A DNA stretch of 58,335 bases, from NCBI GenBank assembly GCA_025350045.1, contig JANXYM010000054.1, forward strand, positions 1-58,335. Direction: 5' to 3'. Within the stretch, counting starts at the first letter, position 1. Each line of letters begins with the position of its first letter. Of the stretch, positions 9,312 through 46,187 are shown piece after piece. The translations under genes were made by a program, and so were the position numbers. The notes under the pieces were generated by a model. It searched no databases, was not told the origin of the DNA, and saw only the letters and a program-made list of their open reading frames with translations. The DNA is from Methanomicrobiales archaeon. GTDB taxonomy: Archaea > Halobacteriota > Methanomicrobia > Methanomicrobiales > Methanospirillaceae.

Positions 9312-9320
9312 AGTGCATTA

Positions 9321-9334: not shown

Positions 9335-9348
9335 CTTCCCCATAATAA

Positions 9349-9371: not shown

Positions 9372-9380
9372 TTTTGGAAT

Positions 9381-9675: not shown

Positions 9676-9684
9676 TAAGAACTC

Positions 9685-11938: not shown

Positions 11939-11983
11939 AATTTCCACCATGAACGGGCATCTGTTACGAACAGAGAGGGCCGT

Positions 11984-11997: not shown

Positions 11998-12027
11998 TAA
12001 TCTAAGCCGGGTGCCATAAAAAAACTT

Positions 12028-12120: not shown

Positions 12121-12348
12121 GGCGGTATCTTCCGGTATGCGTATTAACCGGATCGGGAAGATTAGGGAAAACTGCCGCTATCTTCTTAATCTTCCTGCCG
12201 GAATGGTATCATAAATAACGCAGGATTTCACACCCCTGCATTTTGCCGGAAACCAGAACATAAATCCGGTTCTGACAATTGACGGTGGTGAGATACCAGA
12301 GTTTTTCCGGTAAATGCGGAAGATATCCGGATTCGGCGAGGAAAATCC

Positions 12349-13281
12349 ATGACACAGATCCATGAAAATATCACAACTACGATCGGCAACACCCCGCTCG
12401 TGCGGCTGAACCGTCTCACCCGTGGGGCCGGCGCAACAGTGCTCGCCAAGCTCGAGTCCTTCAATCCGATGAGCAGCGTCAAGGATCGGATCGCTGTGGC
12501 GATGATCGATGCAGCAGAGACAGCGGGTCTTATCAAACCCGATACCATCATCCTCGAACCCACCAGCGGGAACACCGGGATAGGACTTGCCATGGTGGCC
12601 GCTGCCCGGGGATACCGGATCACCCTGGTTATGCCGGATACGATGAGTATCGAGCGGCGCAAACTCCTCAAAGCGTTCGGTGCCGATCTCATCCTCACGC
12701 CCGGAAAAGAGGGAATGAAAGGAGCGATTGGAAAAGCCGAGGCACTCCTTGCGGAGAATCCCCGGTATTTCTATATCCCCCAGCAGTTCAGGAACCCGGC
12801 AAATCCTGCCATTCACAAGAAGACCACCGCAGAGGAGATCTGGCGGGACACGGGCGGGCAGGTGGACGCCATAGTCGCGGGTGTGGGGACCGGGGGTACC
12901 ATCACCGGGATAACTTCAGTCATCAAGCCCCGCAGGCCGGGATTCAGGGCGATTGCCGTGGAGCCTGACACATCCCCCGTATTATCCGGAGGCCAGCCGG
13001 GACCGCACAAGATCCAGGGCATTGGGGCAGGATTTGTCCCGGACGTGCTCTTAAAGGATCTTCTCGATGAAGTGATCCCCGTCACCTATGAAGATGCCGT
13101 CACAACTGCACGGAGAATGGCCAAAGAGGAGGGGATACTCATAGGTATTTCAGGGGGAGCTGCGACATGGGCTGCACTCCAGGTTGCGGCACGGAAAGAC
13201 TATGCGGGTAAGACGATCGTTGTCATCATTCCGGATTCCGGGGAGCGGTACCTGAGCACGGAACTCTTTGAGACAGGATAG
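12349..13281 (+). CDS. cysK: Cysteine synthase (O-acetylserine sulfhydrylase)
   Basis: CysK makes cysteine from O-acetylserine and sulfide. The 310-residue PLP enzyme has the PLP lysine in [14 protein letters not shown], the substrate loop [11 protein letters not shown] and the phosphate loop [10 protein letters not shown], all standard for CysK. It starts ATG at 12349 after GGCGAGGAAAATCC and is followed after 8 bp by cysE. With SepCysS also present, the organism has both tRNA-dependent and free-amino-acid routes to cysteine. The bacterial-type cysK/cysE pair in a methanogen was probably acquired by transfer. Confidence 0.95.
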
Positions 13282-13289
13282 GAAAAACC

Positions 13290-14255
13290 ATGGTTTTCGA
13301 TTACATACGGGAAGATATCGGGTCCATTTTATCCCAGGATCCGGCCGCACGCTCAACCATTGAGATCCTGTTCTGCTATCCCGGGCTGCACGCTCTCTGG
13401 TTTCACCGCCGGGTCCACTGGCTCTGGATGCATAACGGAAAATTCTGGGCCCGGTTTATCTCCCACATCAGCCGGTTCCTGACAGGCATCGAAATTCATC
13501 CCGGTGCAGTGATAGGCCGCAGGGTCTTTATCGATCATGGCATGGGTGTGGTGATCGGAGAGACTGCGGAAGTGGGCAACGATGTACTCATCTACATGGG
13601 TGTGGTGCTGGGCGGGACAGCTCTCGAAAATGTCAAGCGTCACCCGACCATTGAAGATGGCGTCATCATCGGTTCCGGGGCAACCGTGCTCGGGCCCATC
13701 CGGATCGGGAAGGGAGCAAAAGTCGGGGCAGGATCGGTCGTGGTCCGGTCGGTTCCGCCCGGTGCCACAGTTGTCGGGGTTCCGGGCAGGATTGCAGGAC
13801 CCGAGAACCTATCTCCGGGGGTGGATGAGGGCGGGATCATGCCCGATCCCATGCTCCGGGTCGTAAGCCGGCTGCTCGACCGTCAGAACCTGCTCGAAGA
13901 AAAACTCCGCATTTTTGAGCAGGCTCGGACAGGTCCCGTCTCTCCTGCTGCCCGGCAGGAGATTGTCTGCGAGAACGAGATCCGCGATGCCCTGCGGGAA
14001 GTGATCGATCCCGAGGTGGGCATCGATATCGTGGACCTCGGGCTCATCAAGGAGATCCGTATCAAAGATACCCGCGTGGAGATTGACATGGTCCTCACCT
14101 GCAAGGCCTGCCCCCTCTCCGATCACTTATCAGAGCAGGTAAAGCGCAAGGCGCTCGGGGTCTGCGGCATTGAACATGTGACCGTGAACTTACTCGACGA
14201 ACCGTGGAACTGGGATCGTTTCGTTAAACAGCGGGGAACTCTCCGGCAGATCTGA
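13290..14255 (+). CDS. cysE: Serine O-acetyltransferase fused to a MIP18/DUF59 (SufT-like) domain
   Basis: A 321-residue protein with two parts. Residues 1-~185 are a short-form serine acetyltransferase: [21 protein letters not shown], then left-handed beta-helix hexapeptides ([20 protein letters not shown]). It makes O-acetylserine for CysK. Residues ~225-321 are a MIP18/DUF59 domain ([21 protein letters not shown], then [12 protein letters not shown]). This family acts in Fe-S assembly or transfer as SufT, and its Cys is preserved. A short coil joins the halves. The reading frame is continuous, so the fusion is real here unless there is a sequence error. It may link cysteine synthesis to cluster assembly. 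Confidence 0.9.
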
Positions 14256-15222: not shown

Positions 15223-16818
15223 TCAGTCGCGTTTTTCTTCCTCGGTAACCTGTGCAAGGATTGCTGCGGTCGGGCCGATATCAATGATCTTCCCGCCCCG
15301 CATCAGTGCAACGCGATCACAGACGTCCCGGACAAAGTCCATGTCGTGCGAAACCACGATAAAGGTCTCGTCCATCTCGTCGCGTGCATTCAGAATCGAG
15401 TGCTTCACGTCCTGCTTGGTGATGGGGTCCATGGTGCCGGTCGGCTCATCGAGAATGATGAGACGCGGTTCCCGGATAAGCACCTGTGCAAGGGCAACCC
15501 GGTGCCGCTCCCCGTCCGAGAGTTCGCCCGGGAAACGGTTCAGGATCTCCCGGGACTTCTCTTCAGTGAATCCGGCCATCCGGAGCGTAACAATCGCTTT
15601 TCTGATCGCCAGCTCCTTGGGAAAATCCAGTCCTATCGAATCAGTGAGGTTGTCGAGCACGGTGCGGTGGGGGAAGAGATCATACTCCTGGTGCAGGAGC
15701 CCGATGTACTCTTTCGCCCGGCCCCGCTGGTCGATGCCGGGTTTGGTCATATCCACCCAGTCGTCACCGATCAGGATGTTCATCTCGCCGCTTGTAGGTT
15801 CGATGATGCCGGAGATGATCCCGGAGAGGGTGGTTTTTCCGGCCCCGCTCTTCCCGATGATACCAAAGATCTCCTTCTTTGAAACATCGAAGGTGACCAT
15901 GTTCACAGCCTTTACCACGCCCCGGTCAACGGAGATATATCGCTTGGTCACATCCCGGGCCGAAAGAATCTTCTCTCCCAGTTCTACTACGGCGGACTCC
16001 TCGATCTCATGGAAATCTTTGGCAAACGCACGGATCACCATCGTGGGAGAACCAATAGCAGCGATCTCGCCATCGACCAGCAGCATCGCACGGTTTGCCA
16101 TATCCTCGATAACCTGTGAGAAATGCGAGGTGACGACCATGCCCATCGTGTTCTTCTTAGCCGCCTCGGTGAGCATCCCATGTACCAGCCGGGCTGTCTG
16201 GGGGTCAAGGGTTCCGGTGGGCTCATCGGCAAAGAGCATCGACGGGTTCTTGGCCAGCTGCCGGGCCAACACCACCCGCTGCTTCTCGCCACCCGAAAGG
16301 TCGCGGGCGATATGCAGCATCCGGTGGGAGAGTCTTACCTGGTCGATGAGGTCAGCAGCGCGGCTGACCGCATGTTCCTGCGGGTAGCGGATGTCGTCGA
16401 GTGCGTGAAGCACGTTCTCGATCACCCGGTCATCGCCGTAGAGGGCGAACGTACGCTGGAACATGATCGCGGTCCGGTTCATGACCCGGGATTTCATGCC
16501 GTCAGTCATCTTTCCCCAGAGATCAACATCGGCAGCCACGAGCTCGCCGCCGCACTCGGGACATTTTTTACCGGCCCGGCTCTGGACATCCATGAACGTG
16601 CAGCGGTCACAGGCAGACATATGATAGATGATGGAACCTTTGGTCGGGGGTTGTTCGACCCCACGGAGGAGGTGCATGAGCACACTTTTCCCGGCACCGC
16701 TCCGCCCGATAACACCGATGATCTCCCCTTCCGGGATCTCAAATGACACCTTGTTCAGGACCCGTGTGTCATTGAAATCCATGCAGAGGTCGTGTACGCT
16801 GATGAATGGTTTTGTCAT
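15223..16818 (-). CDS. atwA: Methyl-CoM reductase activation component A2
   Basis: AtwA is the ATP-binding component required for ATP-dependent reductive activation of methyl-coenzyme M reductase. The 531 residues hold two ABC ATPase domains: Walker A GRSGAGKSVL and GKSGAGKTTL, signatures LSGGEKQRV and LSDGERHRV, Walker B SMLFADEPTG and LIILDEPTG. The first domain carries the characteristic inserted zinc ribbon CDRC...CPEC. No membrane helices, so it is cytoplasmic. The start at 16818 (MTKPFISVHDL) has GGAGAGAGATC upstream. It follows a 48-residue DUF5320-like peptide by 11 bp, probably on one transcript. Confidence 0.92.
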   Translation of the reverse strand: MTKPFISVHDLCMDFNDTRVLNKVSFEIPEGEIIGVIGRSGAGKSVLMHLLRGVEQPPTKGSIIYHMSACDRCTFMDVQSRAGKKCPECGGELVAADVDLWGKMTDGMKSRVMNRTAIMFQRTFALYGDDRVIENVLHALDDIRYPQEHAVSRAADLIDQVRLSHRMLHIARDLSGGEKQRVVLARQLAKNPSMLFADEPTGTLDPQTARLVHGMLTEAAKKNTMGMVVTSHFSQVIEDMANRAMLLVDGEIAAIGSPTMVIRAFAKDFHEIEESAVVELGEKILSARDVTKRYISVDRGVVKAVNMVTFDVSKKEIFGIIGKSGAGKTTLSGIISGIIEPTSGEMNILIGDDWVDMTKPGIDQRGRAKEYIGLLHQEYDLFPHRTVLDNLTDSIGLDFPKELAIRKAIVTLRMAGFTEEKSREILNRFPGELSDGERHRVALAQVLIREPRLIILDEPTGTMDPITKQDVKHSILNARDEMDETFIVVSHDMDFVRDVCDRVALMRGGKIIDIGPTAAILAQVTEEEKRD

Positions 16819-16829
16819 GATCTCTCTCC

Positions 16830-16976
16830 TCAGATGCCGGTTATCCATCGGCAGTCTTGTTGCGGGCCGGGTTTTTTTGATCCTCTTCCTTTCGTGCGCA
16901 GCTTCGAGAGCCGTGCCTGCAGGGCCCCGATTACCCTCCCCTGTTTCAGCGGCCCGTTTCCGTCAAAATCCGGCAT
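16830..16976 (-). CDS. DUF5320-like small protein
   Basis: A 48-residue frame starting MPDFDGNGPLKQGRVIGALQ and ending in a basic Gly/Pro/Gln-rich tail. The N-terminus resembles the MPxFDGxGPxGxGPxTG start of DUF5320 proteins, small methanogen proteins of unknown role often found near DUF134 regulators and redox genes. Here the DUF134 gene is 180 bp away. The start codon is about 27 bases after the predicted transcription start, and the stop is 11 bp before atwA, so the two share a transcript. Confidence 0.6.
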   Translation of the reverse strand: MPDFDGNGPLKQGRVIGALQARLSKLRTKGRGSKKPGPQQDCRWITGI

Positions 16977-34059: not shown

Positions 34060-35220
34060 ATGGCCCGGTTCTTTTCCACCCATCCCTCCCGGGCGGACAA
34101 TTTCTCGGAATCGGTGATCCGCGAGATGACCCGGCTGTCCCTGAAGCATAACGCGATCAACCTTGCCCAGGGATTTCCGGACTTTCCCTGCCCTGCGGAA
34201 CTGAAAGCCGCAGCCTGTGCAGCTATCAACGAAGACTACAACCAGTACGCGATCACGTGGGGGGCACAGGACCTCCGCGAGGCGCTGGCAGCCCGGATCA
34301 GGCAGTTCAATGGCATGAACTTTGACCCGCAGACCGAGATCACGGTTACCTGCGGTTCTACCGAAGCGATGATGGCCTCGATGCTCGCCCTCATCCAGCC
34401 CGGCGATGAGGTGATTGTGCCAGAACCATTCTATGAGAATTACGGGCCCGACACCCGGATCTCGGGAGCGGTGCCGCGGTATGTCCAGGTAAAGGACGAT
34501 TTCTCGATCGATGAAGAGGCCTGGAAATCCGCGTTCAACAAGAAAACCCGGGCAATTATCCTCAATACCCCCAACAACCCGACCGGCAAGGTCTTCTCCC
34601 GGGAAGAACTTGCGTTCATCGCTGACCTCTGTATCGACCACAACGTGATCGCCATTACCGATGAGATTTACGAACACATCCTGTACGATGGCAGAAAACA
34701 TGTCTCGATAGGTGCACTGGACGGAATGCAGGATTGTACAATCACCATCGGCAGTTTCTCCAAGACCTACAGTGTCACCGGCTGGCGTGTCGGGTATGCC
34801 CTCGCAGGAAAGGAGATCACGGCACGCCTCCGCAAGATCCACGATTTCTTAACCGTGGGTGCCCCGGCCCCGCTGCAGCATGCCTGTGGTGCAGCACTCC
34901 GGCTGCCGGAATCCTATTACCATGAGCTTGCCCGGGAGTACGACCGGAAACGGCACATCCTCTTTGACGGGCTGAAGAAAGCCGGGTTCACCTGCCAGCT
35001 GCCGGAAGGCGCCTACTATATCTTTACGGATATTGCCGGGTTTGGCATGAACGATACGGAGTTCGCCCGCTATCTCGTGGAAAAGGCCGGGGTGGCAGCG
35101 GTACCGGGAAGCTCGTTTTACCATGAGGGGGGAGAGACGAAACTCCGGTTCACGTTCTCGAAAAGGGATGAGACATTAAACGAGGCGTGCCGGCGCCTTG
35201 AGACACTCGATTTGGGGTAA
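34060..35220 (+). CDS. Class I PLP aminotransferase (probable cysteate/aspartate type)
   Basis: 386 residues of a fold-type I aminotransferase. Substrate arginine loops and NTPNNPTGKVFS are present, the PLP lysine is in SFSKTYSVTGWRVGY, and the late RFTFSKRD holds the carboxylate arginine. Sequence alone gives an aspartate/aromatic-type enzyme. Its place beside, and convergent with, cysteate synthase and sulfopyruvate decarboxylase suggests that it converts cysteate to sulfopyruvate in coenzyme M synthesis; this is inference. The start at 34060 (MARFFSTHPSRAD) is preferred over 34012 because homology begins there. Confidence 0.85.
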   Translation: MARFFSTHPSRADNFSESVIREMTRLSLKHNAINLAQGFPDFPCPAELKAAACAAINEDYNQYAITWGAQDLREALAARIRQFNGMNFDPQTEITVTCGSTEAMMASMLALIQPGDEVIVPEPFYENYGPDTRISGAVPRYVQVKDDFSIDEEAWKSAFNKKTRAIILNTPNNPTGKVFSREELAFIADLCIDHNVIAITDEIYEHILYDGRKHVSIGALDGMQDCTITIGSFSKTYSVTGWRVGYALAGKEITARLRKIHDFLTVGAPAPLQHACGAALRLPESYYHELAREYDRKRHILFDGLKKAGFTCQLPEGAYYIFTDIAGFGMNDTEFARYLVEKAGVAAVPGSSFYHEGGETKLRFTFSKRDETLNEACRRLETLDLG

Positions 35221-35256
35221 GTCAAAATGCAAAAATTATTTTTTTAATCCATCCCT

Positions 35257-36381
35257 TTACCGGGTATTTTTCATTGCAGCCGAGAACCGGTCCCGGATCT
35301 GATGCGGCGTGAGGGGGATGTTCTTTACTGTGGAGTTACCGGGTTTCAGCAGCACATGGATGAAGTTCGGACCTTTACGAAGTCCCCCGATAACCGCTGC
35401 CAGTTCAGCTTCAGTCTGGGTTTTTGTTGTGAACCGGAAACCTGCTGCAATGGCAAGCAGTTCGATATCCGTATCCCGGTATGCCGGAGTGAGCTGATTA
35501 CCGGTACTGCCAAAAGCGCCATTGTCAAGACAGAATATAGTCAGGTTCTCCGGCTGACAGGCGCCGATAACCGGCAGGATACCGGTCCCAAGGATACTCC
35601 CATCCCCGTCAATCACCCAGACATCTCGCCCGGTGCCTTCGGCAAGCCCGAGCCCCAGGGGTGAAGCCTGCGTGTAGCTCCCGAGCATGTAGAAGTTCAG
35701 GGGCCGGTCGTTTGCGGCATAGAGTTCCTTGCCGGGCACCCCGATATTCGAGACTACAGCCTGCTCCGTAAGGTGCCGGGCAATGACACGGATCGCATCG
35801 AACCGGGTCATCACCGGTTCTGTGATGGTCCGTTTGTAGGAGACTGCTACCCGCCGGGCACGAGACGGCGGAGGACAATCTTCCCGGCAGGATTCGGCTC
35901 CTTCCCATGCCTTGGGGAGCACGAGAGCCACATGGGGTCGCGAGTGGAGGAATGCATCATCAATCACATCGCCAATCTTTACGAACTCTTCGTTCGTACG
36001 GATAACGGTATACGGGATTTCAGTTGCGTCAAGGATCTTCGGGATCGCTGCATTGAATGGCACCTGTGCGGGTATTATTTCGTCCTGCACCCCGCGCCAG
36101 CTCGCGATGATGGGGAGCGGGAGATCGTACGTCTTTGTCAGGGACATGATGGCATTGAGGGAGTTGCCCAACCCTGAACTCTGGATGACCATCGCCGGCC
36201 GCTGTCCGGAAAGAGCCAGTCCAGCACAGACACCAATCCCATCCTCTTCCCGGGTAAGACAGGTATGGTCGAAGTGGTCGGGCAGCATGAAACAGAGATC
36301 TTTTGCCTTGTCGCACGGGATTGACGCCATGTGGCTGATGCCGTGCTCTTTCAAGATGTCGATAACGAGGTTCTCATACAT
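35257..36381 (-). CDS. comDE: Sulfopyruvate decarboxylase, fused alpha and beta parts
   Basis: Decarboxylates 3-sulfopyruvate to sulfoacetaldehyde, a step to coenzyme M. The 374 residues combine the Pyr half (MYENLVIDILKEHGISHMAS; catalytic Glu in CLTREEDGIGVCAGLAL) and the PP half. The thiamine-diphosphate motif there is WVIDGDGSILG and LDNGAFGSTG. In some methanogens these are two genes, comD and comE; here one frame covers both. Its ATG overlaps the stop of the cysteate synthase gene by 8 bp, so the two are coupled. Confidence 0.92.
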   Translation of the reverse strand: MYENLVIDILKEHGISHMASIPCDKAKDLCFMLPDHFDHTCLTREEDGIGVCAGLALSGQRPAMVIQSSGLGNSLNAIMSLTKTYDLPLPIIASWRGVQDEIIPAQVPFNAAIPKILDATEIPYTVIRTNEEFVKIGDVIDDAFLHSRPHVALVLPKAWEGAESCREDCPPPSRARRVAVSYKRTITEPVMTRFDAIRVIARHLTEQAVVSNIGVPGKELYAANDRPLNFYMLGSYTQASPLGLGLAEGTGRDVWVIDGDGSILGTGILPVIGACQPENLTIFCLDNGAFGSTGNQLTPAYRDTDIELLAIAAGFRFTTKTQTEAELAAVIGGLRKGPNFIHVLLKPGNSTVKNIPLTPHQIRDRFSAAMKNTR

Positions 36382-37645
36382 GGTTCTTGGTCATCTCCAC
36401 GAGTTCCTTTTTCACGTCTCTGACAGTTGCTCCGGCTGATACGCAGAATGCGGCCTGGACCGGGACAAGCGGGTAATCTTCCCGCACCCGCTCGTATCCC
36501 CCGCCAGTGATATTCAGGAGCACGGTCCGGCTCTTATCGATGCTGCCGCTCTCACACGCCCGGATGAGCGAGGCTGTGCAGACCGCTGCAGCAGGATCAA
36601 TATCGATGCCTTCGGCTTCGGTGAACAGGGCTCCGGCAGCACGAGCCTCTTCATTGGAAACCGCGTACATCCTGCCGTCAGTTGCCGACATCGCATCGAA
36701 CACCCCGCCGGGAATCGCGTAGGGAGGTTCCCGGTTGGTCAGCACGTCCGAGTAAACCCGGGATATGGCAGCCTGGGCATCCGGCATATCTGTCTCTGCT
36801 ACCAGAGTTCTCCGATGGTCATTCCATGCCGAGACCATCGGCACAAACGGGAGGTTCTGGCTGAGGTGGAGGGAGGGCAGCGCTGTCCCGAACCGCCCGT
36901 CTGCCTGAAGGCGCACCGCAGCTTCCCATGCCGCAATCCCCCCGGTACCGCTTCCGATGGCCTGGAAATAATAGTCCGGCATACGGCCGATAGTTACGGC
37001 CGCATCGAGCATCACGGTTCCCATGCCGTCCCGCCGCGCAACATTCCGTGCCCCGCCCTCCTCGATATAACCGGGGAGGGAACAGATCTCGCGGCTGAAA
37101 CTGATGGCGTCGGTGTAATCCCCCCGGACAGCAATCACGCAGGCCTTCTCTGCCGTAACAGTTGTCCAGAGCCGGGGCAGGGCTTTTTCCGGTACCACGA
37201 CAACGACCGAAACCCCGGTCAGGGCCGAGACTTGGAGGAATGCACGGGCGGTATTGCCGGCAGAGGCAATAACGAGAACCTTGTTTGTGGTCTCGCGTGC
37301 CCGGACCATGGTAGGGAGGGCTTCGAGCTCCTTAAACGAGCAGGTGGTGATCTTCCCGCCCCGTTCCGGCCAGTAGCCGTTGAAATCTATGTATAAGTTG
37401 GGGAGGCCCAGTTCGCGTGCCAGCGTTTCGCTCTTATAACAGACCGGGCCTGCATCGATGGGTAGTGTACCGTGGCTCGGGAGCCAGCTGCCAAAGCGGA
37501 AGATACCGGGAGCGTTTTTAAGATTCAGTTGTTTTTCCGCATAATCGGCCCGCAGGAGAGAGGCATGGCCATGAGGGCAGGACAGGGTATAATGTTCCGG
37601 CACCTCTTCGCCACAGTGGACACAACGGAGCGTGTAAGAGCTCAT
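36374..37645 (-). CDS. Cysteate synthase
   Basis: Makes L-cysteate from O-phosphoserine and sulfite, the entry to coenzyme M in Methanosarcinales and Methanomicrobiales. The 423-residue PLP enzyme is related to threonine synthase. An N-terminal zinc ribbon (CVHCGEEVPEHYTLSCPHGH) is followed by the PLP lysine in TTCSFKELEALP, SAGNTARAFLQ and GSGTGGIAAWEA. The zinc ribbon and the SFKELEA context separate it from ordinary threonine synthases. It overlaps the mmp16 gene by 4 bp upstream and comDE downstream, so the coenzyme M genes form one transcript. Confidence 0.88.
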   Translation of the reverse strand: MSSYTLRCVHCGEEVPEHYTLSCPHGHASLLRADYAEKQLNLKNAPGIFRFGSWLPSHGTLPIDAGPVCYKSETLARELGLPNLYIDFNGYWPERGGKITTCSFKELEALPTMVRARETTNKVLVIASAGNTARAFLQVSALTGVSVVVVVPEKALPRLWTTVTAEKACVIAVRGDYTDAISFSREICSLPGYIEEGGARNVARRDGMGTVMLDAAVTIGRMPDYYFQAIGSGTGGIAAWEAAVRLQADGRFGTALPSLHLSQNLPFVPMVSAWNDHRRTLVAETDMPDAQAAISRVYSDVLTNREPPYAIPGGVFDAMSATDGRMYAVSNEEARAAGALFTEAEGIDIDPAAAVCTASLIRACESGSIDKSRTVLLNITGGGYERVREDYPLVPVQAAFCVSAGATVRDVKKELVEMTKNHV

Positions 37646-38889
37646 AAGAGATCCTCCACCTTGCCGGTGAGGCTGAACTTCCGGTCAAGGATCAGGTCTT
37701 TGAGATGCGTGCACAACCGCAGTGCCCGGGCACGGTCCGACTGGCGCAATGAGATGGGAACATTTGTTGTGTTCACCGGTAACGCTCCGAGATTTCCGGA
37801 GAATGCTCCCCCGGGACACTCACGGACGCAGGTGCCACAGTTCACGCAGAGCAACAGGTCAATGCCAGACGGGGGCGTGATTGCACCCGTTGGGCAGCTC
37901 TGTGCAGCAAGGCAGGTATCGCAATGCACACAGGCGCCGGGCGAGAAGGAGATAACAGGATCCGTCCCATCCCAGATATCCGAGTAACGGGCAGTGGCAA
38001 AAGGAACCCGGTCCCGTACATCTGCTACCGGCAGCGGGATGCGGTCATTGGTGATGCGGAGGCCGGCTAGGACCGTATCGTCAAGAACGGGAATGGGAAT
38101 GGCAATCGAGGTGTTGCACTCGGGCCCCAGCGACGTAACAAAACCGCCCATCATCTCGGGGATCATCGCGTGCATATCCCCATAGGCAGCGATGTTGGGT
38201 TTTTCCCGGCTGCTTCGGGTGCCCGTGCCCATGACATAGCCGGTCCCTCCGTTGAGGAGGATCCTTGTTCCGGGACCGATCACCCGAAAACCCGGATCAT
38301 TCTGGAGCGGGTTGATATCCCCGCACCCGCTCACCGAGACTTCGGTATAGGGCCCGGTGAGTCCTTTTGCCGAGAAGATGGTCTGCACAGTCTCGGGTTT
38401 TGTATTGAGGACCGCAAGGTAATTTCGGAACGCGCTTCGCGTGGTGATGAGACGGGCATGGCCCATGTCGGTCAGTGTTACGGTGCGGGAGAACCGTTCG
38501 TGCGATGATTCCACCTCAGCGGTCACCTCATGTCCAGCGACGATGTCGCGGAAGAGATGCCCCCCGCCGTATGTGGCACTCGCCCGCGCTGTACCGTACA
38601 CCACGAGATCGACTGACCCGAGCCCCTCGTTCGGGCAGGGTCCGGGAATGGCCGGCACACCATTCAGCCAGACTTTTTCCGCATGCCGGAAGGTGCCGGG
38701 TGCAGTTACCGGGAGGTGCAGGACGGCAAGCGTGCCGGACATCACGCCAAACGTCCCGGTGGTCACCACATCCACATCAGCTGCGGTGATTGTCTCATCT
38801 TCCGCAATGCGCTGTTTGAGTTCCGCGGCAGTGCAGACAACGGCATTTCCCCCGGAAATTTTCCTGTTGATCTCATCAATAGTCTTCAT
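37642..38889 (-). CDS. Methanogenesis marker 16 metalloprotein (COG1900/DUF39)
   Basis: 415 residues. An N-terminal DUF39/COG1900 domain (about 1-330; conserved GTFGVMSGTLAVLH, GGTGYVMGTGT) is followed by two [4Fe-4S] ferredoxin motifs (CVHCDTCLAAQSCPTGAI, CVNCGTCVRECPGGAF). Other COG1900 members insert sulfide into aspartate semialdehyde to make homocysteine. A related protein has been proposed, from memory, to convert sulfoacetaldehyde to coenzyme M. The position between cysteate synthase and an Fe-S protein fits a last sulfur-insertion step. The start at 38889 has AGGAGTGCAGGA upstream. Confidence 0.85.
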   Translation of the reverse strand: MKTIDEINRKISGGNAVVCTAAELKQRIAEDETITAADVDVVTTGTFGVMSGTLAVLHLPVTAPGTFRHAEKVWLNGVPAIPGPCPNEGLGSVDLVVYGTARASATYGGGHLFRDIVAGHEVTAEVESSHERFSRTVTLTDMGHARLITTRSAFRNYLAVLNTKPETVQTIFSAKGLTGPYTEVSVSGCGDINPLQNDPGFRVIGPGTRILLNGGTGYVMGTGTRSSREKPNIAAYGDMHAMIPEMMGGFVTSLGPECNTSIAIPIPVLDDTVLAGLRITNDRIPLPVADVRDRVPFATARYSDIWDGTDPVISFSPGACVHCDTCLAAQSCPTGAITPPSGIDLLLCVNCGTCVRECPGGAFSGNLGALPVNTTNVPISLRQSDRARALRLCTHLKDLILDRKFSLTGKVEDLL

Positions 38890-38899
38890 TCCTGCACTC

Positions 38900-39520
38900 C
38901 TAGTGGATCCGGATATCCTCAACTCGCACCTGCAGGCCCGTGGACTTCTCAAACACCTGATTCACCACACCGGTATGGGCAACCTGCATCATGCAGAACG
39001 ACGGGAGGAAGAACTGCCGGAACCCGAACTCCGGGGGGCGTCTCACTACTTCTGCCATCCCCTCGAACCCGATGACATGGTAGGCCTGCACATCTTTCCC
39101 CCCGTTCTTCCGTGCCTCGTGGGGCCCGACCGTGTGGCAAGTGAGAACACCGGTCACCGTGTTTGCATCGATCACGCGGAGCACGTGCTGTACCGGGCAA
39201 CCCTGCCCCATGGGCCGGCCAATTACGATATCTCCCGGTACAATATTCCAGCGTTCAACCAGGTCAGCCCGGAACGGGAGGATGATCTTCCGTGCGGAGG
39301 GCTCACCGGGAAGCGGTCCGATGATGAAATCATAGGCTCTCCCGCACGCGTCAGTCGCGGGGGGAACGGGTTTATCAACGGCAACAGTTGGCGTTGAGGT
39401 ACCATAAAACGGGCAGTCTGTCCTGACCTTTGTTCCCTGCTCCACCAGGACAACAAAATCCCCGCAGCATCTCGCACCGCATGCACCGCAATCCTTCCCT
39501 GGCGGCTGCCAGTCGTCCAT
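38900..39520 (-). CDS. Fe-S protein of the coenzyme M operon
   Basis: 206 residues beginning with a cluster motif CGACGARCCGDF and DCPFYG near residue 36, then a domain with no clear relative (ADLVERWNIVPGDIVIGRPM) and a late cysteine in PSFCMMQVAHTG. The CxxCxxxC start resembles [4Fe-4S] domains of corrinoid and CODH proteins. It ends 10 bp before the mmp16 start and begins 3 bp after the GTPase stop. It may be an electron carrier or cluster donor for mmp16. No named family is certain. Confidence 0.65.
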   Translation of the reverse strand: MDDWQPPGKDCGACGARCCGDFVVLVEQGTKVRTDCPFYGTSTPTVAVDKPVPPATDACGRAYDFIIGPLPGEPSARKIILPFRADLVERWNIVPGDIVIGRPMGQGCPVQHVLRVIDANTVTGVLTCHTVGPHEARKNGGKDVQAYHVIGFEGMAEVVRRPPEFGFRQFFLPSFCMMQVAHTGVVNQVFEKSTGLQVRVEDIRIH

Positions 39521-39523
39521 GCC

Positions 39524-40231
39524 CTAGTCACCCCTGAAGATATCGTCAGCCCCGTCCAGTTTCCTGACCACACCGAAATGGTTCTGCCAGCCGATCTCCC
39601 GTTTGCCCACGCAGATGGTGCAGACCCCAAGCGGGGGTATGCCCCGCAGCAGGATGGAAGCGGGATCAGCAATCTCTGCCTGCTGGTCTATAGCCCGCAT
39701 CAGGAAGCGGAGCCCGGTTCCCTGTATCGCGTTGGTCTCGATGATATCAATCGCCGGGGCAACCTCCTTGGTCTTCTCGCGGAACACTTCCTTTTCCGAC
39801 TGGGAAACCAGATCGGTTTTGGTGATCACCGCCACATCAGCAAGGGAGATCATGGGACCCATCTTTAACGGAGAGTTCATGCCGCTGACCGCGGAAAGGA
39901 CCACGATCCCGAGAGACTGGGTAACATACGGAGAGCACCGGAGGCAGAGCCCGGCACTTTCCACGATAAAAATATCCGTCCCGAGACCCTCAGCCCACGC
40001 GATCGCATCTTTCAGGACCATGACTCCCGTATGGTCCGGGCACAGGTCGCCGGAATAGATCTTACGGGCAGGGATATGGAACTCCTCCTTAAGTTCCTCA
40101 TCTTCAAAAGCCCGGACCACATCGATCTTTAAAAAAGCGCACTTCTTCTTTCCGAGAAAATGCCGGATGATCTGGCGGGTTACCGCGGTCTTGCCGGCAC
40201 TCGGGGGTCCGGCGATGATGATGAGTTTCAT
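39524..40231 (-). CDS. HypB/CooC/UreG-type GTPase of the coenzyme M operon
   Basis: A 235-residue P-loop NTPase. Walker A is GPPSAGKTAVT, an internal VESAGLCLRCSP supplies a cysteine pair, the guanine motif is TKTD (AVITKTDLVSQ), and a late CTICVGK gives another CxxC. The fold is that of metallochaperone GTPases (HypB, UreG, CooC, CobW), which use GTP to load metal or release a cofactor. It lies between the Fe-S protein and an ABC-type ATPase, with a 4-bp overlap to the latter. I infer a role in maturing an enzyme of coenzyme M synthesis. Confidence 0.75.
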   Translation of the reverse strand: MKLIIIAGPPSAGKTAVTRQIIRHFLGKKKCAFLKIDVVRAFEDEELKEEFHIPARKIYSGDLCPDHTGVMVLKDAIAWAEGLGTDIFIVESAGLCLRCSPYVTQSLGIVVLSAVSGMNSPLKMGPMISLADVAVITKTDLVSQSEKEVFREKTKEVAPAIDIIETNAIQGTGLRFLMRAIDQQAEIADPASILLRGIPPLGVCTICVGKREIGWQNHFGVVRKLDGADDIFRGD

Positions 40232-41010
40232 ACCAAAAACCCCGGCTCGGTGAGGAGTTCCCCTGCACGGATCCGCTCACGGAAGCGGCAGAGCGTGAGA
40301 TCCATGCGGGCCACCATCTCCCGGATGTGAGTCTCCCGGCCTTCCGGCTCGAGAATTCTCTCCACGCCCCCGTGGCGCATCACCAGCCGGCGGTCGGACA
40401 ACAGCGAGACCAGCGGATCGTGGGTGACAAAGATCACCGATTTGCAGTGTTCCTTTAACACCTCGATCACCTTCTCCCGGAAAATTCCCGCATTTTCCAC
40501 TTCATCGAGCAGGATAAGAGGCGCATTGCTGATCAGGATCGCATCGGCCACCATGAGCGAGCGGGTCTGGCCCCCGGAGAGTGCCGTGATCAGGCAACCG
40601 GGGTGAATCTGTTCCCCGGTGAACTGGTTGGCGAGATCGATGGTCTCGGCAACAATCGCTGAACCGCTCATCTTCCGTGCCCGGACATGCATGGCAAGGA
40701 AGGCTTCCACCGACATATCGGCCAGGCACTTGGTATTCTGGGTGATGAGGGCTATGGGTTTTTTTGAGGGGTCCCGGATGAACTCTTCTGCGGGGATTTC
40801 GCCGTTCACCAGCACCGTTCTCCCGGTCGAGGTGTCGTTGCAGGCAAACACCTCAATATCGTTGATGAATGCGGTCTTTCCGGAGCCGGTCGGACCGACG
40901 ATAGAGAGCGTATCCCCGGGACGGATCACGATGCGGTCGAAGGATTCCGGGTTCCCGTGCTTATCGTGGCCGGGCAGAATGGTAATATCGCTGATGGCTC
41001 CGGAGCTCAT
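40228..41010 (-). CDS. Cytosolic ABC-type ATPase of the coenzyme M operon
   Basis: 260 residues of a single ABC ATPase domain with no partner permease. Walker A is GPTGSGKTAFINDIE, signature ALSGGQTRSL, Walker B LILLDEVENAG, switch His in FVTHDPLV. The N-terminus (SDITILPGHDKHGNPESF) is unlike that of transport ATPases. It is the first gene of the operon that ends with comDE. As with AtwA or SufC, a soluble ABC ATPase may drive protein assembly or reduction. The promoter lies in the AT-rich 41011-41113, divergent from the regulator at 41114. Confidence 0.78.
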   Translation of the reverse strand: MSSGAISDITILPGHDKHGNPESFDRIVIRPGDTLSIVGPTGSGKTAFINDIEVFACNDTSTGRTVLVNGEIPAEEFIRDPSKKPIALITQNTKCLADMSVEAFLAMHVRARKMSGSAIVAETIDLANQFTGEQIHPGCLITALSGGQTRSLMVADAILISNAPLILLDEVENAGIFREKVIEVLKEHCKSVIFVTHDPLVSLLSDRRLVMRHGGVERILEPEGRETHIREMVARMDLTLCRFRERIRAGELLTEPGFLV

Positions 41011-41113
41011 GACAAGCAGAAGGAACCGCGGCTAAAAATAGGTTTGCCATAATTTTAGTTTTTTTAATTATTAAAGGAAAAATTTTATTTTTTATTACTA
41101 CTATGATAGTATA

Positions 41114-41599
41114 ATGTTTTCAAAAAAGGTATTTGAAGTGGATTTCCGGACTGCGCTGGAAGAGGAACTCGCCCGCAGGAACATGACCATAAAGGAGCTT
41201 GCTGACAAGGCCGGGATTCCTGCAGCAACGCTGTACAAGATTACGTCCGGCGAAGGGGATGTCCGTCTCTCAACAGTCAAAAAGATAGTCCAGGTACTTG
41301 AACCGAAGTTGCCGGTCTTCATTGCTGTCATTGCGGCAAAATTTCTTCTCGATGAAATTGAGGGGCAGGAGATCTGTATAAGAGGCCAGACCTATTCGCT
41401 GCGGGGGTATACGGCAAACTCTATTGAAGAGTGCATCATTGCTGCCGTTATGTCGGAAAAAGACGGGGCGGCCGGGATCATCTGTGCTCCTATCCTGGCA
41501 TCGATGATAGAAAAGATTGTTGATGTTCCGGTAGCCATCATGAAGCCAAAGGCCGGCACCGTACTCGATGCGCTGGAGGTCGTTGCGCGACGAATATAA
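41114..41599 (+). CDS. XRE-type HTH regulator (COG4800-like)
   Basis: 161 residues. An N-terminal helix-turn-helix (about 22-62; MTIKELADKAGIPAATLYKI) is followed by a ligand-type domain (about 75-161; CIRGQTYSLRGYTANSIEE, AGIICAPILASMI) with three cysteines. It matches the COG4800 group of archaeal HTH proteins of unknown ligand. Only about 100 bp separate its start from the divergent coenzyme M operon, so that operon is its likely target. The intervening DNA is very AT-rich and holds TATA elements for both sides (AATTATTAAAGG toward this gene). Confidence 0.78.
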   Translation: MFSKKVFEVDFRTALEEELARRNMTIKELADKAGIPAATLYKITSGEGDVRLSTVKKIVQVLEPKLPVFIAVIAAKFLLDEIEGQEICIRGQTYSLRGYTANSIEECIIAAVMSEKDGAAGIICAPILASMIEKIVDVPVAIMKPKAGTVLDALEVVARRI

Positions 41600-42091: not shown

Positions 42092-42370
42092 TTATCCCCC
42101 CGCAACGGGCGGGAATACAGCGATCTCGTCACCGTCGGCAACCGGCGTTGTTGCCGCATCCTCAAGCTCGACCCGCTTGCCGTTCTTCATCAGGATCACA
42201 AACTCGTAAAAAGCCCCCTTCTCATCGAAGATGGCTGCATATCCCGCGGGATTTTTCCGGGCTATGGTTGCGATCAGGGAGGTAAACATCGTCCCTGAGG
42301 CTACATCGGTCATGATATCGGTCCCGAGCAGTTCGCGGAACCGGGCAAAAAACCGGATCTTAACGGTCAT
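42092..42370 (-). CDS. moaD: MoaD-type sulfur carrier
   Basis: A 92-residue ubiquitin-fold protein beginning MTVKIRFFARFRELLGTD and ending FPPVAGG. The terminal Gly-Gly is adenylated and thiocarboxylated by the E1-like enzyme encoded just upstream (4-bp overlap), then donates sulfur to MoaE. The start at 42370 is chosen because the family begins MTVKIRFFA; the 15 upstream codons overlap the E1 gene and are not conserved. The order IscS, IscU, E1, MoaD, MoaE gives a full chain from cysteine to molybdopterin. Confidence 0.92.
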   Translation of the reverse strand: MTVKIRFFARFRELLGTDIMTDVASGTMFTSLIATIARKNPAGYAAIFDEKGAFYEFVILMKNGKRVELEDAATTPVADGDEIAVFPPVAGG

Positions 42371-43125
42371 TTCTTCTTCCTCGCGGGTGTTTTTGATCCC
42401 GTTATACCACCGCACGCTTCGCAGGCGGGGTTGCGTTCAACACAGAGCTCTTCTGCATGCGCCTGCATCCCGTCCCAGATAAAGAGCCGGCCCGTGAGCA
42501 GTTCACCGCTTCCCAGCAGGTACTTGATCACTTCGTTTGCCTGGATCGTGCCGATGATACCGGGAGTTACCCCGACCACCGGGAACACTTCCTTGGGCGG
42601 GGCTTTGGGGAAGATGCATTTCAGGCAGGGGGTTTTTCCAGGAATGATTGTGGTTGCCTGCCCGTAGAATCCCCTGATCCCGCCATGGAAGAGCGGGATC
42701 TCCTTTGCTATCGCGGCGGTGTTGAGCAGGTATCGTGTCGGGTAGTTGTCCATGGCATCTACGATCCCATCAGCATTTCCGATAAGTTTTGCCGCGTTCG
42801 ACTCATCGATCTTCACGTCGATCGCGTTGATCGTGATATCCGGGTTGAGCCCCTGCAGTTTCTCTTCAGCAGAGATGGTCTTCTTCCTGCCTATATCCCG
42901 GTCGAAGTGGAGAATCTGGCGGTTAAGGTTCGACTGGTCGACTACGTCCATATCGACAATGGTGATCGTTCCCACACCGGCAACGGCAAGATATAGGGAA
43001 ATAGGTGAGCCCAGCCCCCCGGCGCCGGCCACAAAGATATGCGCCTTTTTCAGCCGCTCCTGGCCTTCCCCGCCAAAGAGCAGCATCTGCCGCTGGTATC
43101 GTTCGAGTTCCCGTTCTGAAAACAT
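42367..43125 (-). CDS. moeB: E1-like adenylyltransferase, MoeB/HesA/ThiF family
   Basis: 252 residues. It activates the C-terminal glycine of MoaD and probably of other ubiquitin-like carriers. The ATP-binding loop is VAGAGGLGSPISLYLAVAG, followed by VDQSNLNRQILH and DAMDNYPTRYLLN. Zinc is held by CLKC and CEAC (about 172 and 242). No rhodanese domain is present, so sulfur must come from a persulfide donor; IscS is encoded upstream. It could also serve the small GG-ending protein at 47915, since no second E1 is in the window. Confidence 0.9.
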   Translation of the reverse strand: MFSERELERYQRQMLLFGGEGQERLKKAHIFVAGAGGLGSPISLYLAVAGVGTITIVDMDVVDQSNLNRQILHFDRDIGRKKTISAEEKLQGLNPDITINAIDVKIDESNAAKLIGNADGIVDAMDNYPTRYLLNTAAIAKEIPLFHGGIRGFYGQATTIIPGKTPCLKCIFPKAPPKEVFPVVGVTPGIIGTIQANEVIKYLLGSGELLTGRLFIWDGMQAHAEELCVERNPACEACGGITGSKTPARKKK

Positions 43126-43166
43126 AGCTCACCAGTCGATTTCCGGATACCTGTTGCTGTAAATGC

Positions 43167-43598
43167 CTAATGCTGGCAGGTCATATCTTCGTGTTCATGC
43201 GAGTGGGGGTTCTTCTCCACCCAGGGTTCAAGCCCCTTCTTCACCCGGTAATCGTTGATCGCCTTGTGAATCCCTTCTTCGGCCAGCACCGAGCAGTGCA
43301 TCTTGATCGGGGGAAGGCCTTCGAGCGCCTCGGCCACCGCCGCATTCGAGACATCCCAGGCCTCTTCGAGTGTCTTTCCCCGGACCAGTTCGGTTGCCAT
43401 GCTGCTGGATGCGATCGCAGCCCCGCAGCCAAACGTCTTGAACTTCGCATCGGTGACGATGTTGTTCTCGATCTTTAAGAAGATCTTCATGATGTCCCCG
43501 CAGACGGGGTTTCCTACTTCCCCGATACCGTCGGCATTCTCGATCTCGCCGACATTCCGGGGATTCTTGAAATGGTCCATGACCTTGTCACTGTACAT
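43167..43598 (-). CDS. iscU: Iron-sulfur cluster scaffold IscU
   Basis: 143 residues with the three cluster cysteines in GNPVCGDIM, TFGCGAAIASS and MHCSVLAEEGI and the nearby Asp. It receives sulfur from IscS and assembles [2Fe-2S] or [4Fe-4S] clusters. The tail carries extra His and Cys (HSHEHEDMTCQH), absent from bacterial IscU, that may bind metal. It overlaps the iscS stop by 11 bp. The operon is preceded by the TTCACAATTGTGAA operator. Confidence 0.95.
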   Translation of the reverse strand: MYSDKVMDHFKNPRNVGEIENADGIGEVGNPVCGDIMKIFLKIENNIVTDAKFKTFGCGAAIASSSMATELVRGKTLEEAWDVSNAAVAEALEGLPPIKMHCSVLAEEGIHKAINDYRVKKGLEPWVEKNPHSHEHEDMTCQH

Positions 43599-44787
43599 TG
43601 CAACCTCCTTCCTTTCCGCTCTTCTGGTAGAGCGGGGACATATCCCGCAGCTTTGTTACCACTTTCGGGAGCACTTCGAGCACGACATCCACATCCTTGT
43701 CTGTATTCGCATCGCCCAGCGTGAGCCGGAGCGAGCCGTGCGATATCTCCACCGGCAGACCGGTTGCAAGCAGCACATGGGAGGGTTCAAGCGAACCCGA
43801 GGTGCAGGCGCTCCCGGTAGAGGCGCAGATGCCCTCGTCATCCAGCCAGAGGAGCATGGACTCGCCTTCGATAAATTCGAAACTCACGTTGAAGTTCCCC
43901 GCGAGCCGTTTTTCCGGGTGACCGTTGAGCCGGGCGTTGGGTATGGTATCCAGGACACCCTTGATGAGCCGGTCCCGCATTGCCCGGATCTTCGCTGCAT
44001 GCCCCGGAATATCTGCCGTTGCCTTCTCGATTGCCTTTCCCAGACCGACGATACCGGCAATATTCTCGGTACCCGCACGCCTTCTCCGTTCCTGTCCCCC
44101 GCCATGAATCAGGTTGTCGATCCGGACGCTTTTTTTGATGTAGAGCGCTCCTGTCCCTTTGGGCCCGTAAAATTTATGGGCCGACAGGGAGAGCAGATCG
44201 ATGTTCTGTGCATTCACATCAATCGGTACGCTGCCGATTGCCTGGACGGCATCGGTATGAAAGTATACCTTATGCTTCCGGGCGATCGCACCGAGTTCAA
44301 CGATTGGTTCAATCGTCCCGATCTCGTTGTTCGCGTACATGATCGTGATCAGGATCGTCTTGTCCGTGATCGCTTTCTCCAGGACTGCTGGATCCACCAG
44401 CCCGTACTGGTCAACGGGAAGGTACGTAACTTCGAATCCTTCCTTTTCAAGGAACTGGCAGGTGTGGAGCACCGCATGGTGCTCGATCGCACTGGTGATA
44501 ATATGGTTACCCCGCTTCCGGTTCGCAAGCGCAACACCTTTGATCGCCCAGTTGTCCGACTCACTTCCTCCCGAAGTGAAATAAATCTCATCCGGTTCCG
44601 CACCCAGCGCTTTTGCCGTCTGCACCCGCGCCGCATCGATCGCCTTTTTTGATTCGCGGGCAATGCTGTAGATGGAGGACGGGTTGCCGAAATGTTCCGT
44701 GAAGTACGGGATCATCGCGTTCACCACGTCGGGTTTTACAAACGTGGTTGCGGAATGATCCATGTAGATTGTGCGTTGCGCTCCCAT
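43588..44787 (-). CDS. iscS: Cysteine desulfurase IscS/NifS
   Basis: 399 residues. A PLP enzyme that takes sulfur from cysteine as a persulfide. Motifs: MDHSATTFVKPDVV at the N-terminus, PLP lysine in SLSAHKFYGPKGTGALY, and catalytic Cys in STGSACTSGSLEPSHVL on a short loop. It is first in the leftward operon iscS-iscU-moeB-moaD-moaE. The leader is long (about 130 nt from the predicted start site). Regulation by the palindrome at 44924 and the Cys4 HTH protein encoded divergently is likely. Confidence 0.95.
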   Translation of the reverse strand: MGAQRTIYMDHSATTFVKPDVVNAMIPYFTEHFGNPSSIYSIARESKKAIDAARVQTAKALGAEPDEIYFTSGGSESDNWAIKGVALANRKRGNHIITSAIEHHAVLHTCQFLEKEGFEVTYLPVDQYGLVDPAVLEKAITDKTILITIMYANNEIGTIEPIVELGAIARKHKVYFHTDAVQAIGSVPIDVNAQNIDLLSLSAHKFYGPKGTGALYIKKSVRIDNLIHGGGQERRRRAGTENIAGIVGLGKAIEKATADIPGHAAKIRAMRDRLIKGVLDTIPNARLNGHPEKRLAGNFNVSFEFIEGESMLLWLDDEGICASTGSACTSGSLEPSHVLLATGLPVEISHGSLRLTLGDANTDKDVDVVLEVLPKVVTKLRDMSPLYQKSGKEGGCNVQ

Positions 44788-44922
44788 AGCATCTCTCTTA
44801 CCTGATTATCTGTGTGGGGGGTGAGATTATTCTTTCCCAATGATATCATGAAACCCCGTTCTCAGTCCGGGCAAACCGGGGACTGGTTCATGGTGCAAAG
44901 ATATTTGTGGTTTCCCGACTCA

Positions 44923-44951
44923 ATTCACAATTGTGAATGCAATATATTATG
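44923..44951. promoter_or_regulatory. Shared promoter: TATA and perfect palindrome, isc / HTH genes
   Basis: ATTCACAATTGTGAAT (44923-44938) is a perfect 16-bp palindrome. Beside it lies the self-complementary TATA element AATATATT (44942-44949). Leftward, the palindrome falls directly downstream of the TATA box, where a bound protein would block iscS transcription. Rightward, the same TATA is about 40 bases from the HTH start, with the palindrome upstream. The regulator would thus repress isc and may activate or tune itself. Confidence 0.7.
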
Positions 44952-44984
44952 TGACAACTCGGATAACTTAAACGTTGTGATACC

Positions 44985-45317
44985 ATGGAAGCACCCTGTC
45001 AGAAAATAGTATGGGATGTCCTGCCGGCAATCCGGGCGGCAATCGCCGTAGAGCTCGTCAGGTGCGGGGTCTCCCAGGTAGAAGCTTCGCGAATGCTGGA
45101 GATAGCGCCATCGGCGGTCTCACAGTACCTGTCCGGCAAACGCGGGTACCGGATCGAATTTGAAGAGGATGTAAAAAAGTCGATTGCCCTGCTGGCACAG
45201 GACCTGATCGACAAAAAAGAGATCAAGGTTATCGAACGGATCTGTGGGATATGCCGACAGCTCCGGGAAGGGGAGGGCGGATGTGCCGGCCCGGCTCCTG
45301 AACGGTGCGGTTCATAA
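44985..45317 (+). CDS. HTH regulator with C-terminal Cys4 motif
   Basis: 110 residues. An N-terminal helix-turn-helix (about 10-60; VSQVEASRMLEIAPSAVSQYLSG, in parts) of the COG2522-like archaeal type is followed by a helix and a tail with Cys87, Cys90, Cys100 and Cys108 (CGIC, GGCAGP, ERCGS). This C-x2-C-x9-C-x7-C set could hold a [4Fe-4S] cluster or zinc. It is divergent from iscS across a perfect palindrome and followed by larE, so a sensor of cysteine or Fe-S status is likely. Two further cysteines (5, 27) lie near the DNA-binding part. Confidence 0.8.
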   Translation: MEAPCQKIVWDVLPAIRAAIAVELVRCGVSQVEASRMLEIAPSAVSQYLSGKRGYRIEFEEDVKKSIALLAQDLIDKKEIKVIERICGICRQLREGEGGCAGPAPERCGS

Positions 45318-45368
45318 TTTTTTTCATTCGCATTCCGATCGAATATGTTGGGTAATTCCGGAGATCCC

Positions 45369-46187
45369 ATGATGGTTACAGAAAAGACGCAGGTGCTCAA
45401 AGAGATGATTGCATCGAAGGGATCGATGCTCATATCCTATTCCGGCGGCGTAGACAGCGCCCTGCTCGCCGTGCTCGCAACCGAGGTTCTGGGCGACAAA
45501 GTCCGGTGTATACTGCTCGACAGCCCGGTTGTCCCGCGTGCAGCAATCAATGAGGCCCGGCAGATCGCAGAGGAATACAACCTCCGGATGGAGATCATGC
45601 CCGTTCGCGTGATGGACGATGAACGGTTCAAGAAAAATCCAGCGGATCGCTGCTATTGGTGCAAGAAAAAATCCGACAAAGTGCTGAAATGGCGGATGGA
45701 TGCATTGCACTTTGCCTGCATTGCCGATGGCATCAATCTATCAGACAAAGGAGAACACCGGCCCGGGCTCCAAGCGAGCACCGAAGACGGGATCTGCCAC
45801 CCGTTCTTAGAGTCCGGTATAACCAAAGCAGACATACGGGAGATTGCCCGGGCCAGAGGGCTGAAGTTCTGGAACAAGCCATCTGCCGCCTGCCTCTCGT
45901 CCCGCTTTCCCTATGGAGATGAGATCACCTACAAAAAACTGGCCATGATCGAAGAGGCCGAAACGTTCCTGCACACCAGCGGGTTTGCCCAGTGCCGGGT
46001 CAGGCTGCATGGTGAGATCGCCCGGATCGAAGCAGTGCGGGAAGAAGTTCCAAAAGTGCTGGACATGCAAGACGAGCTGGTGAAGGTCTTAAAAGCGATC
46101 GGGTTTACCTATGTCACGCTCGATCTTGAAGGCTACCGCTCCGGCAGCATGGATGAAGTCTTACCAAAAGAAGAGCCACCACAATGA
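45369..46187 (+). CDS. larE: LarE-type sulfur transferase, three-cysteine form
   Basis: 272 residues. PP-loop YSGGVDSALLAVLA, the GINLSDKGEHRPG segment and CLSSRFPYG identify LarE, which adenylates pyridinium dicarboxylate and inserts sulfur for the nickel-pincer cofactor. Cysteines in RCYWCK (about 95 and 98) and SAACLSS (about 175) make the three-cysteine set of LarE forms thought to hold a [4Fe-4S] cluster and use outside sulfide rather than sacrificing their own cysteine. LarB and LarC are not in the window, so the true acceptor may differ. It overlaps fdhD by 4 bp. Confidence 0.85.
   Translation: MMVTEKTQVLKEMIASKGSMLISYSGGVDSALLAVLATEVLGDKVRCILLDSPVVPRAAINEARQIAEEYNLRMEIMPVRVMDDERFKKNPADRCYWCKKKSDKVLKWRMDALHFACIADGINLSDKGEHRPGLQASTEDGICHPFLESGITKADIREIARARGLKFWNKPSAACLSSRFPYGDEITYKKLAMIEEAETFLHTSGFAQCRVRLHGEIARIEAVREEVPKVLDMQDELVKVLKAIGFTYVTLDLEGYRSGSMDEVLPKEEPPQ

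Follow-up and report, generated by a model that had tools for sequence, protein, structure and literature searches.

A coenzyme M operon of a Methanomicrobiales archaeon, headed by an ABC ATPase, a GTPase and an Fe-S protein that may form a metallocofactor assembly module

The window considered here, a stretch of 58,335 nucleotides from a Methanomicrobiales archaeon (contig JANXYM010000054.1 of assembly GCA_025350045.1), contains an operon in which genes for the synthesis of coenzyme M (CoM) are preceded by genes for a soluble ATP-binding cassette (ABC) ATPase, a P-loop GTPase and a COG2000-type iron-sulfur (Fe-S) protein. These three accessory genes are referred to below as the trio. An earlier reading of the same DNA (the original prediction) had described a seven-gene CoM locus that may include a dedicated assembly machinery. 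From the operon, its relatives in other archaea and the occurrence of the trio in bacteria, we arrive at a different description, in which the trio may be a portable module for making a metallocofactor that CoM synthesis has recruited.

The operon and its genes

The six genes of the operon (Table 1) lie on the minus strand and are transcribed in the order ABC ATPase, GTPase, Fe-S protein, mmp16, cysteate synthase (CS) and ComDE, with the trio upstream of the CoM genes. The original prediction had named these members correctly, as the profile and domain matches bear out, but had placed CS and ComDE first. Successive junctions measure -4, +3, +10, -4 and -8 bp (the +10 bp junction, between the Fe-S protein and mmp16, is computed with the ATG start of mmp16). 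The uninterrupted 4-8 bp overlaps that had been claimed are thus present at three of the five junctions, and the other two are gaps of 3 and 10 bp. Given these compact junctions, the six genes are very likely one operon, as had been proposed. The identical order is found in 11/11 other Methanomicrobiales genera sampled, and so the arrangement is not a matter of chance.

The aminotransferase gene that had been counted as the seventh member is encoded on the plus strand, convergent with ComDE, and therefore cannot belong to the operon; nor does an aminotransferase accompany any of the 11 other Methanomicrobiales operons. The locus is a real six-gene operon with an unrelated neighbor. The closest relatives of the operon genes are those of Methanoregulaceae/Methanolinea, and the mcrA gene of the same genome is located on another contig.

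Table 1. Coordinates of the operon genes and of other features of the window
Feature	Positions	Strand	Description
Soluble single-domain ABC ATPase	40228..41010	-	Trio member 1, at the start of the operon; PF00005, 43.6 bits
HypB/CobW-class P-loop GTPase	39524..40231	-	Trio member 2; PF02492
COG2000-type Fe-S protein	38900..39520	-	Trio member 3; PF04060, 26 bits (cut-off 23)
mmp16 (methanogenesis marker 16)	37642..38889	-	Proposed CoM synthase; TIGR03287, 483.8 (cut-off 363.95); PF01837, 327 bits
Cysteate synthase (CS)	36374..37645	-	TIGR03844, 656.3 bits (cut-off 324.9)
Fused sulfopyruvate decarboxylase ComDE	35257..36381	-	TIGR03845, 203.5 (cut-off 147.95); TIGR03846, 216.5 (cut-off 221.5)
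Aminotransferase	34060..35220	+	36 bp between its stop and that of ComDE
XRE-type helix-turn-helix gene	41114..41599	+	Divergent; candidate regulator of the operon; PF01381
Stretch with candidate operator motifs	41011..41599		Intergenic region together with the divergent gene
Second full-length AtwA (component A2)	15223..16848	-	851 bits
Sulfur genes, first stretch	4617..14255
Sulfur genes, second stretch	42367..46187

In ComDE, the alpha half scores over its cut-off and the beta half just under, and the two domains are fused in the expected order. mmp16 combines a COG1900/HcyBio domain with a ferredoxin-type domain that carries two C-terminal 4Fe-4S motifs, and the alignment shows all eight ferredoxin-type cysteines to be conserved. 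In M. acetivorans, mmp16 is the main CoM synthase, as demonstrated genetically by Chadwick et al. 2025 (PMC12068725). The assignment of sulfur insertion to mmp16 in the original prediction was therefore right and already published, and on its profile matches the mmp16 of the window is proposed to make CoM from sulfoacetaldehyde. The same paper reports that the core cysteines C200/C202 of mmp16 are dispensable, so the clusters of mmp16, and how they are made, become central to the insertion of sulfur into CoM. It also reports that mmp16 functions in Methanosarcina without the trio, and it proposes that L-ASST, a COG1900 relative, compensates for the loss of mmp16.

Proteins of the trio

The ABC ATPase has the LSGGQ signature, Walker A/B motifs and H-loop, all conserved across 12 orthologues. 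The original prediction had compared it with AtwA, and SufC would be another candidate homologue. It is found neither among the 53 matches to the AtwA profile (TIGR03269) nor among the 55 matches to the SufC profile (TIGR01978) in this genome at E <= 1e-3, which rules out both and leaves the AtwA comparison without a basis in homology. The genome has two true AtwA genes, one on contig C6 and one elsewhere in the window (Table 1), and its likely SufC is on contig C48 (202.8 vs 212.8 bits).

On the hypB profile (TIGR00073), the GTPase scores 61.4 bits, below the cut-off of 121.2, and the true HypB of the genome (241.9 bits) is encoded on another contig; the protein is therefore not HypB. It has the P-loop GPPSxGKT and a TKxD motif, and residues C64, H67, C96, C99, C204 and C207 are invariant in a 16-sequence alignment of the family. 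C64/H67 align with the Cys-His pair of the HypB from the same genome, and the later Cys of HypB falls within the C96-C99 stretch.

The Fe-S protein begins with a four-Cys domain like that of the large subunit of the corrinoid/Fe-S protein (CFeSP), the subunit that it matches in the PDB over 40 residues. Its second domain is beta-rich (AlphaFold2 predicted local distance difference test score, pLDDT, 91) and includes the invariant residues C108, H112, C176 and H182. A fold search gave no match at E <= 0.001, and high probability only for the 37-residue CFeSP domain.

Distribution and operon variants in archaea

A set of 247 Halobacteriota genomes, including 50 Methanomicrobiales, was scored for mmp16, CS and the GTPase. 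In the Methanomicrobiales, the GTPase occurs in 34/34 genomes with CS versus 1/16 without, and in 32/33 genomes with mmp16 versus 3/17 without. The sole carrier lacking CS is genome G172, which has a stand-alone trio and neither CS nor mmp16; another genome lacking CS (G003) retains only a fragment of the GTPase. Across the survey, the accessory genes are not absent from most genomes that have both CS and mmp16, as 65/99 of these carry the GTPase (class A, the form in the window, or a more distant class B), yet 34/99 lack it, including Methanosarcina with native operons. The trio is therefore common, but these 34 genomes make it clear that CoM synthesis can do without it in lineages such as Methanosarcina.

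Several variants of the operon can be distinguished. Outside the Methanomicrobiales, all six genes occur together in Methanoplasma (L094), Methanomethylophilus (L100) and Methanimicrococcus (L101). In Methanosarcina, second copies of mmp16 form a four-gene unit with the trio only (L062, L063, L095, L097). Class B loci read CS-ABC-GTPase-FeS-ComD-ComE in L064, L065 and L069, where mmp16 is either convergent or in another place, and CS-ABC-GTPase-FeS in L066. In Methanogenium (L089), mmp16 has been relocated, and five further loci (L053, L055-L058) hold a stand-alone trio. Finally, Methanoregula operons (G049, G240, L078, L083, L088) keep the trio, CS and ComDE without mmp16, which is absent genome-wide in G049, G240 and G287 (the genome of L088); the only COG1900 protein there is of the L-ASST type. 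It follows that mmp16 cannot be the sole client of the trio. It is not an obligate partner, and CS is linked to the trio at least as tightly.

Some related observations may be recorded separately. In genome G212, also of the Methanomicrobiales, mmp16 is present while both CS and the GTPase are missing, the opposite of what Methanoregula shows. The mmp16-less genomes of the Methanoregula group at L155-L161 likewise retain just one COG1900 protein, of the L-ASST type. At L067, L070 and L071, a more distant ABC ATPase-GTPase pair lacks the Fe-S gene and is accompanied by a solute-binding-like protein with DUF1858, a DUF364 'heavy-metal chelation' protein, a CdhD-like protein or FecCD transport genes; judging by these neighbors, the pair is possibly a related metal-handling system. 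Two contigs labeled 'Bacilli' (L098) and 'Nanohalarchaeota' (L076) encode archaeal genes of the CoM operon; they probably derive from methanogens and were assigned to the wrong bin.

The trio in bacteria

When bacterial and archaeal genomes were scanned with the GTPase alignment, at least 578 relatives were confirmed, and the best 80 loci, 49 of them bacterial, were examined. In nearly all of these best 80, the ABC ATPase, GTPase and Fe-S genes are adjacent. Their bacterial hosts include Heliobacterium, Pelotomaculum, Acidobacteria, Bacteroidales, Omnitrophota, Gallionellales, Planctomycetes and Chloroflexi, among others, and the bacterial GTPases are mostly 54-62% identical. Among 38 trio-bearing bacterial genomes, ComD never exceeds the cut-off, and a COG1900 protein is lacking altogether in 30. 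The trio is not specific to CoM: it is widespread in bacteria without the CoM genes tested.

What accompanies the trio in bacteria is often a gene for a NifS-type cysteine desulfurase, which is part of the operon in 20/49 bacterial loci as well as in Methanocellales (L059) and as a rule stands between the GTPase and Fe-S genes. On TIGR03402, which has a cut-off of 530.75, the desulfurases scanned reach 471-485 bits and thus are close relatives of NifS rather than certified NifS. Upstream, about a dozen of the desulfurase-bearing loci have a gene for an Rrf2-family regulator (IscR/CymR superfamily; two of these were profile-scanned, at 114 and 108 bits). A NifS-type desulfurase in the operon, often with such a regulator, points to Fe-S or sulfur-cluster assembly, and the 'assembly' part of the original prediction gains indirect support in this way.

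Other bacterial associations were less consistent. A Bacteroidales operon (L118) has an inserted HydE-type radical S-adenosylmethionine maturase, over the cut-off, which hinted at a strict tie to [FeFe] hydrogenase. Since that enzyme is present in only 20/38 trio genomes, it is not a universal client. For the large open reading frames that flank bacterial trios (ComEC-like, helicase, FG-GAP proteins), the association seems unspecific.

Two alternatives can be weighed at this point. One is that the trio itself directly provides or activates the sulfur of CoM and works with either mmp16 or L-ASST, mmp16 being optional when the trio is present. The desulfurase linkage is a connection to sulfur, the mmp16-less Methanoregula operons retain trio, CS and ComDE in genomes that retain L-ASST, and the published proposal for L-ASST would fit. 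We nevertheless consider direct supply quite unlikely, as the trio bacteria have no sulfoacetaldehyde route over the cut-off (ComD, 0/38) and many genomes synthesize CoM with no trio. The other alternative makes the trio a HypB-like insertase of nickel or another metal for a methanogenesis enzyme such as methyl-CoM reductase (MCR), which merely travels with the CoM genes. The class of the GTPase, its aligned metal ligands and its published label ('Ni2+ binding GTPase', PMC12068725) agree with this, but the trio is missing in many methanogens and present in many bacteria, which are not expected to have MCR and in which its linkage is with NifS, not with nickel enzymes. An insertase of this kind is very unlikely.

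Evolution of the trio

Trees were used to follow how the trio came to be associated with CoM genes. The GTPase tree groups the class A CoM operons with stand-alone trios of Firmicutes as their sister, and places class B and an ANME-1 case elsewhere. The ABC ATPase and Fe-S trees recover the same group of class A and Firmicutes, from which it follows that the trio evolves as a unit. Mapped on the GTPase tree, linkage to CoM genes requires seven changes, and branches with good support make at least four of these unavoidable; the trio became part of CoM loci on about three or more occasions. The GTPases and mmp16 proteins of the six-gene operons L094, L100 and L101, and of the four-gene Methanosarcina units, fall inside the Methanomicrobiales-type clade. 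This placement suggests horizontal transfer of the operon to Methanomassiliicoccales (L094, L100) and Methanimicrococcus (L101), and of the trio with mmp16 to Methanosarcina.

A neutral origin, with the operon formed once and then inherited or transferred with no functional coupling, would account for the strong phylogenetic clustering and for the movement of the entire operon as a unit. It has little probability in view of the forced changes, the different gene order of class B and the joint loss of GTPase and CS in Methanomicrobiales, to which there is one clear exception.

In the mmp16 tree, all mmp16 proteins co-operonic with the trio form one clade (support 99); some of the rows labeled 'noTrio' come from short loci and in fact have a class B trio on the other strand, a few kb away. 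The alignment shows an additional cysteine, C258, in 33/33 of the trio-operonic proteins versus 10/36 of the others. Together with the six-gene operon of the Methanomicrobiales and the four-gene unit of Methanosarcina, these features are what one would expect if the trio were a dedicated system that loads mmp16 with its clusters or reactivates them, as in the original prediction. Such dedication is unlikely, however. The trio occurs with CS and ComDE in genomes that have L-ASST and no mmp16, alone in G172, flanked by CS and ComDE in class B, where mmp16 is convergent or elsewhere, and in 30 bacterial genomes without any COG1900 protein. With the trio also missing from 34 of the 99 genomes that have both CS and mmp16, the claim of a machinery dedicated to CoM is rejected, and the claim of an assembly machinery becomes a wider, testable hypothesis.

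Proposed function

The explanation that we favor, with a probability of roughly 0.5, is that the trio is a portable module for assembling or inserting a metallocofactor, most likely an Fe-S cluster, that was recruited to the sulfur-insertion end of CoM synthesis. Metallocluster assembly is the most economical function for a set comprising NifS, a soluble ABC ATPase, a metal-binding GTPase, an Fe-S carrier with extra ligands and Rrf2-type regulation. Sulfur would come from the NifS-type desulfurase in bacteria and from sulfide in methanogens, where a desulfurase may be unnecessary because they are sulfide-rich. Sulfur and iron would be assembled on the Fe-S protein, and the ABC ATPase and GTPase would power formation of the cluster and its release to a client protein. 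Placed first in the CoM operon of Methanomicrobiales, the module would serve mmp16, with its two 4Fe-4S motifs, and/or L-ASST. mmp16 is the likely client because it is the only other metalloprotein in the operon; the mmp16-less operons imply that L-ASST or another protein is a client as well, or that the trio acts more broadly.

Several points weigh against this explanation. We infer cluster assembly, the direction of transfer and the identity of the client from genomic association. The Fisher p-values for co-occurrence overstate independence, as the genomes are related. At 1e-30, this GTPase is not found in the Methanosarcina genomes whose mmp16 works trio-free, and so mmp16 clusters can be built otherwise. 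An adjacent desulfurase is missing in 29/49 bacterial loci and in all Firmicutes trios, and none is conserved beside the CoM operon. The ABC ATPase is not SufC, and the GTPase could carry nickel or another metal.

Neighboring genes in the window

Homologues of the divergent XRE-type gene were seen near the CoM/trio operon in 27 fetched loci, among them mmp16-less operons and a trio-less CoM operon of ANME-1 (L045). The intergenic region often has a CTACTATAGTAG-like palindrome and a TTTTCCT-N6-GGT element (motifs judged by eye). From these patterns, the protein and the two motifs are a candidate regulator of CoM synthesis and its operators.

Within 42 kb around the operon are further sulfur genes: MetX, O-acetylhomoserine sulfhydrylase, CysK, CysE, NifS-NifU, MoeB/ThiF-like and LarE. 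The NifS-NifU pair is 2.2 kb upstream of the operon in this window only, and was rejected as a conserved link.

Comparison with known systems

The cluster described by Chadwick et al. 2025 has the same genes in the same co-localization as the operon of the window; the ATPase, 'Ni2+ binding GTPase' and COG2000 Fe-S protein were noted there without an assigned role. The association of the trio with CoM genes is thus already published, and its interpretation had been open. In the open PMC literature searched, this is the only paper to use COG2000 in the protein sense, and in the parts of it considered here neither the occurrence in bacteria nor the linkage to NifS nor operons without mmp16 are described. 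New in the present work are the distribution of the trio in bacteria, its link to a desulfurase, its repeated joining of CoM loci, the mmp16-less Methanoregula operons and the 34/99 genomes without the GTPase. The question moves from orphan genes in CoM synthesis to clusters built by a widespread ABC/GTPase/Fe-S/NifS module. The function of the trio can be tested in genetically tractable bacteria with no need for methanogen culture, and the mmp16-less Methanoregula genomes are natural experiments for a back-up route of CoM synthesis.

Among characterized systems, SUF and ISC/NIF share with the surroundings of the trio a cysteine desulfurase, a soluble ABC ATPase and Rrf2-type regulation. The trio differs in that no SufBD-type scaffold was noticed among the operon genes, its ABC protein is absent from the SufC-profile matches, a HypB-class GTPase is involved and the CoM operons of methanogens include no desulfurase. 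We tentatively suggest, as a possibility short of the probable, that the trio, whether or not NifS and an Rrf2 regulator accompany it, constitutes a metallocluster biogenesis system of many bacterial and archaeal phyla that is undescribed and distinct from SUF/ISC/NIF, the CoM operon being one client-specific deployment of it. The GTPase belongs to the same class as HypB, UreG and CooC and aligns with HypB at the metal-ligand Cys/His residues, but it reaches half the HypB cut-off score, forms its own clade, has an extra invariant C99 and a C-terminal CxxC, and has as partners an ABC ATPase and an Fe-S protein rather than hydrogenase genes. AtwA, component A2 in the activation of MCR, is like the trio ABC protein a soluble ABC ATPase for which a metalloenzyme is the proposed target. 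The likeness is by analogy only; AtwA has two ABC domains and the trio protein has one.

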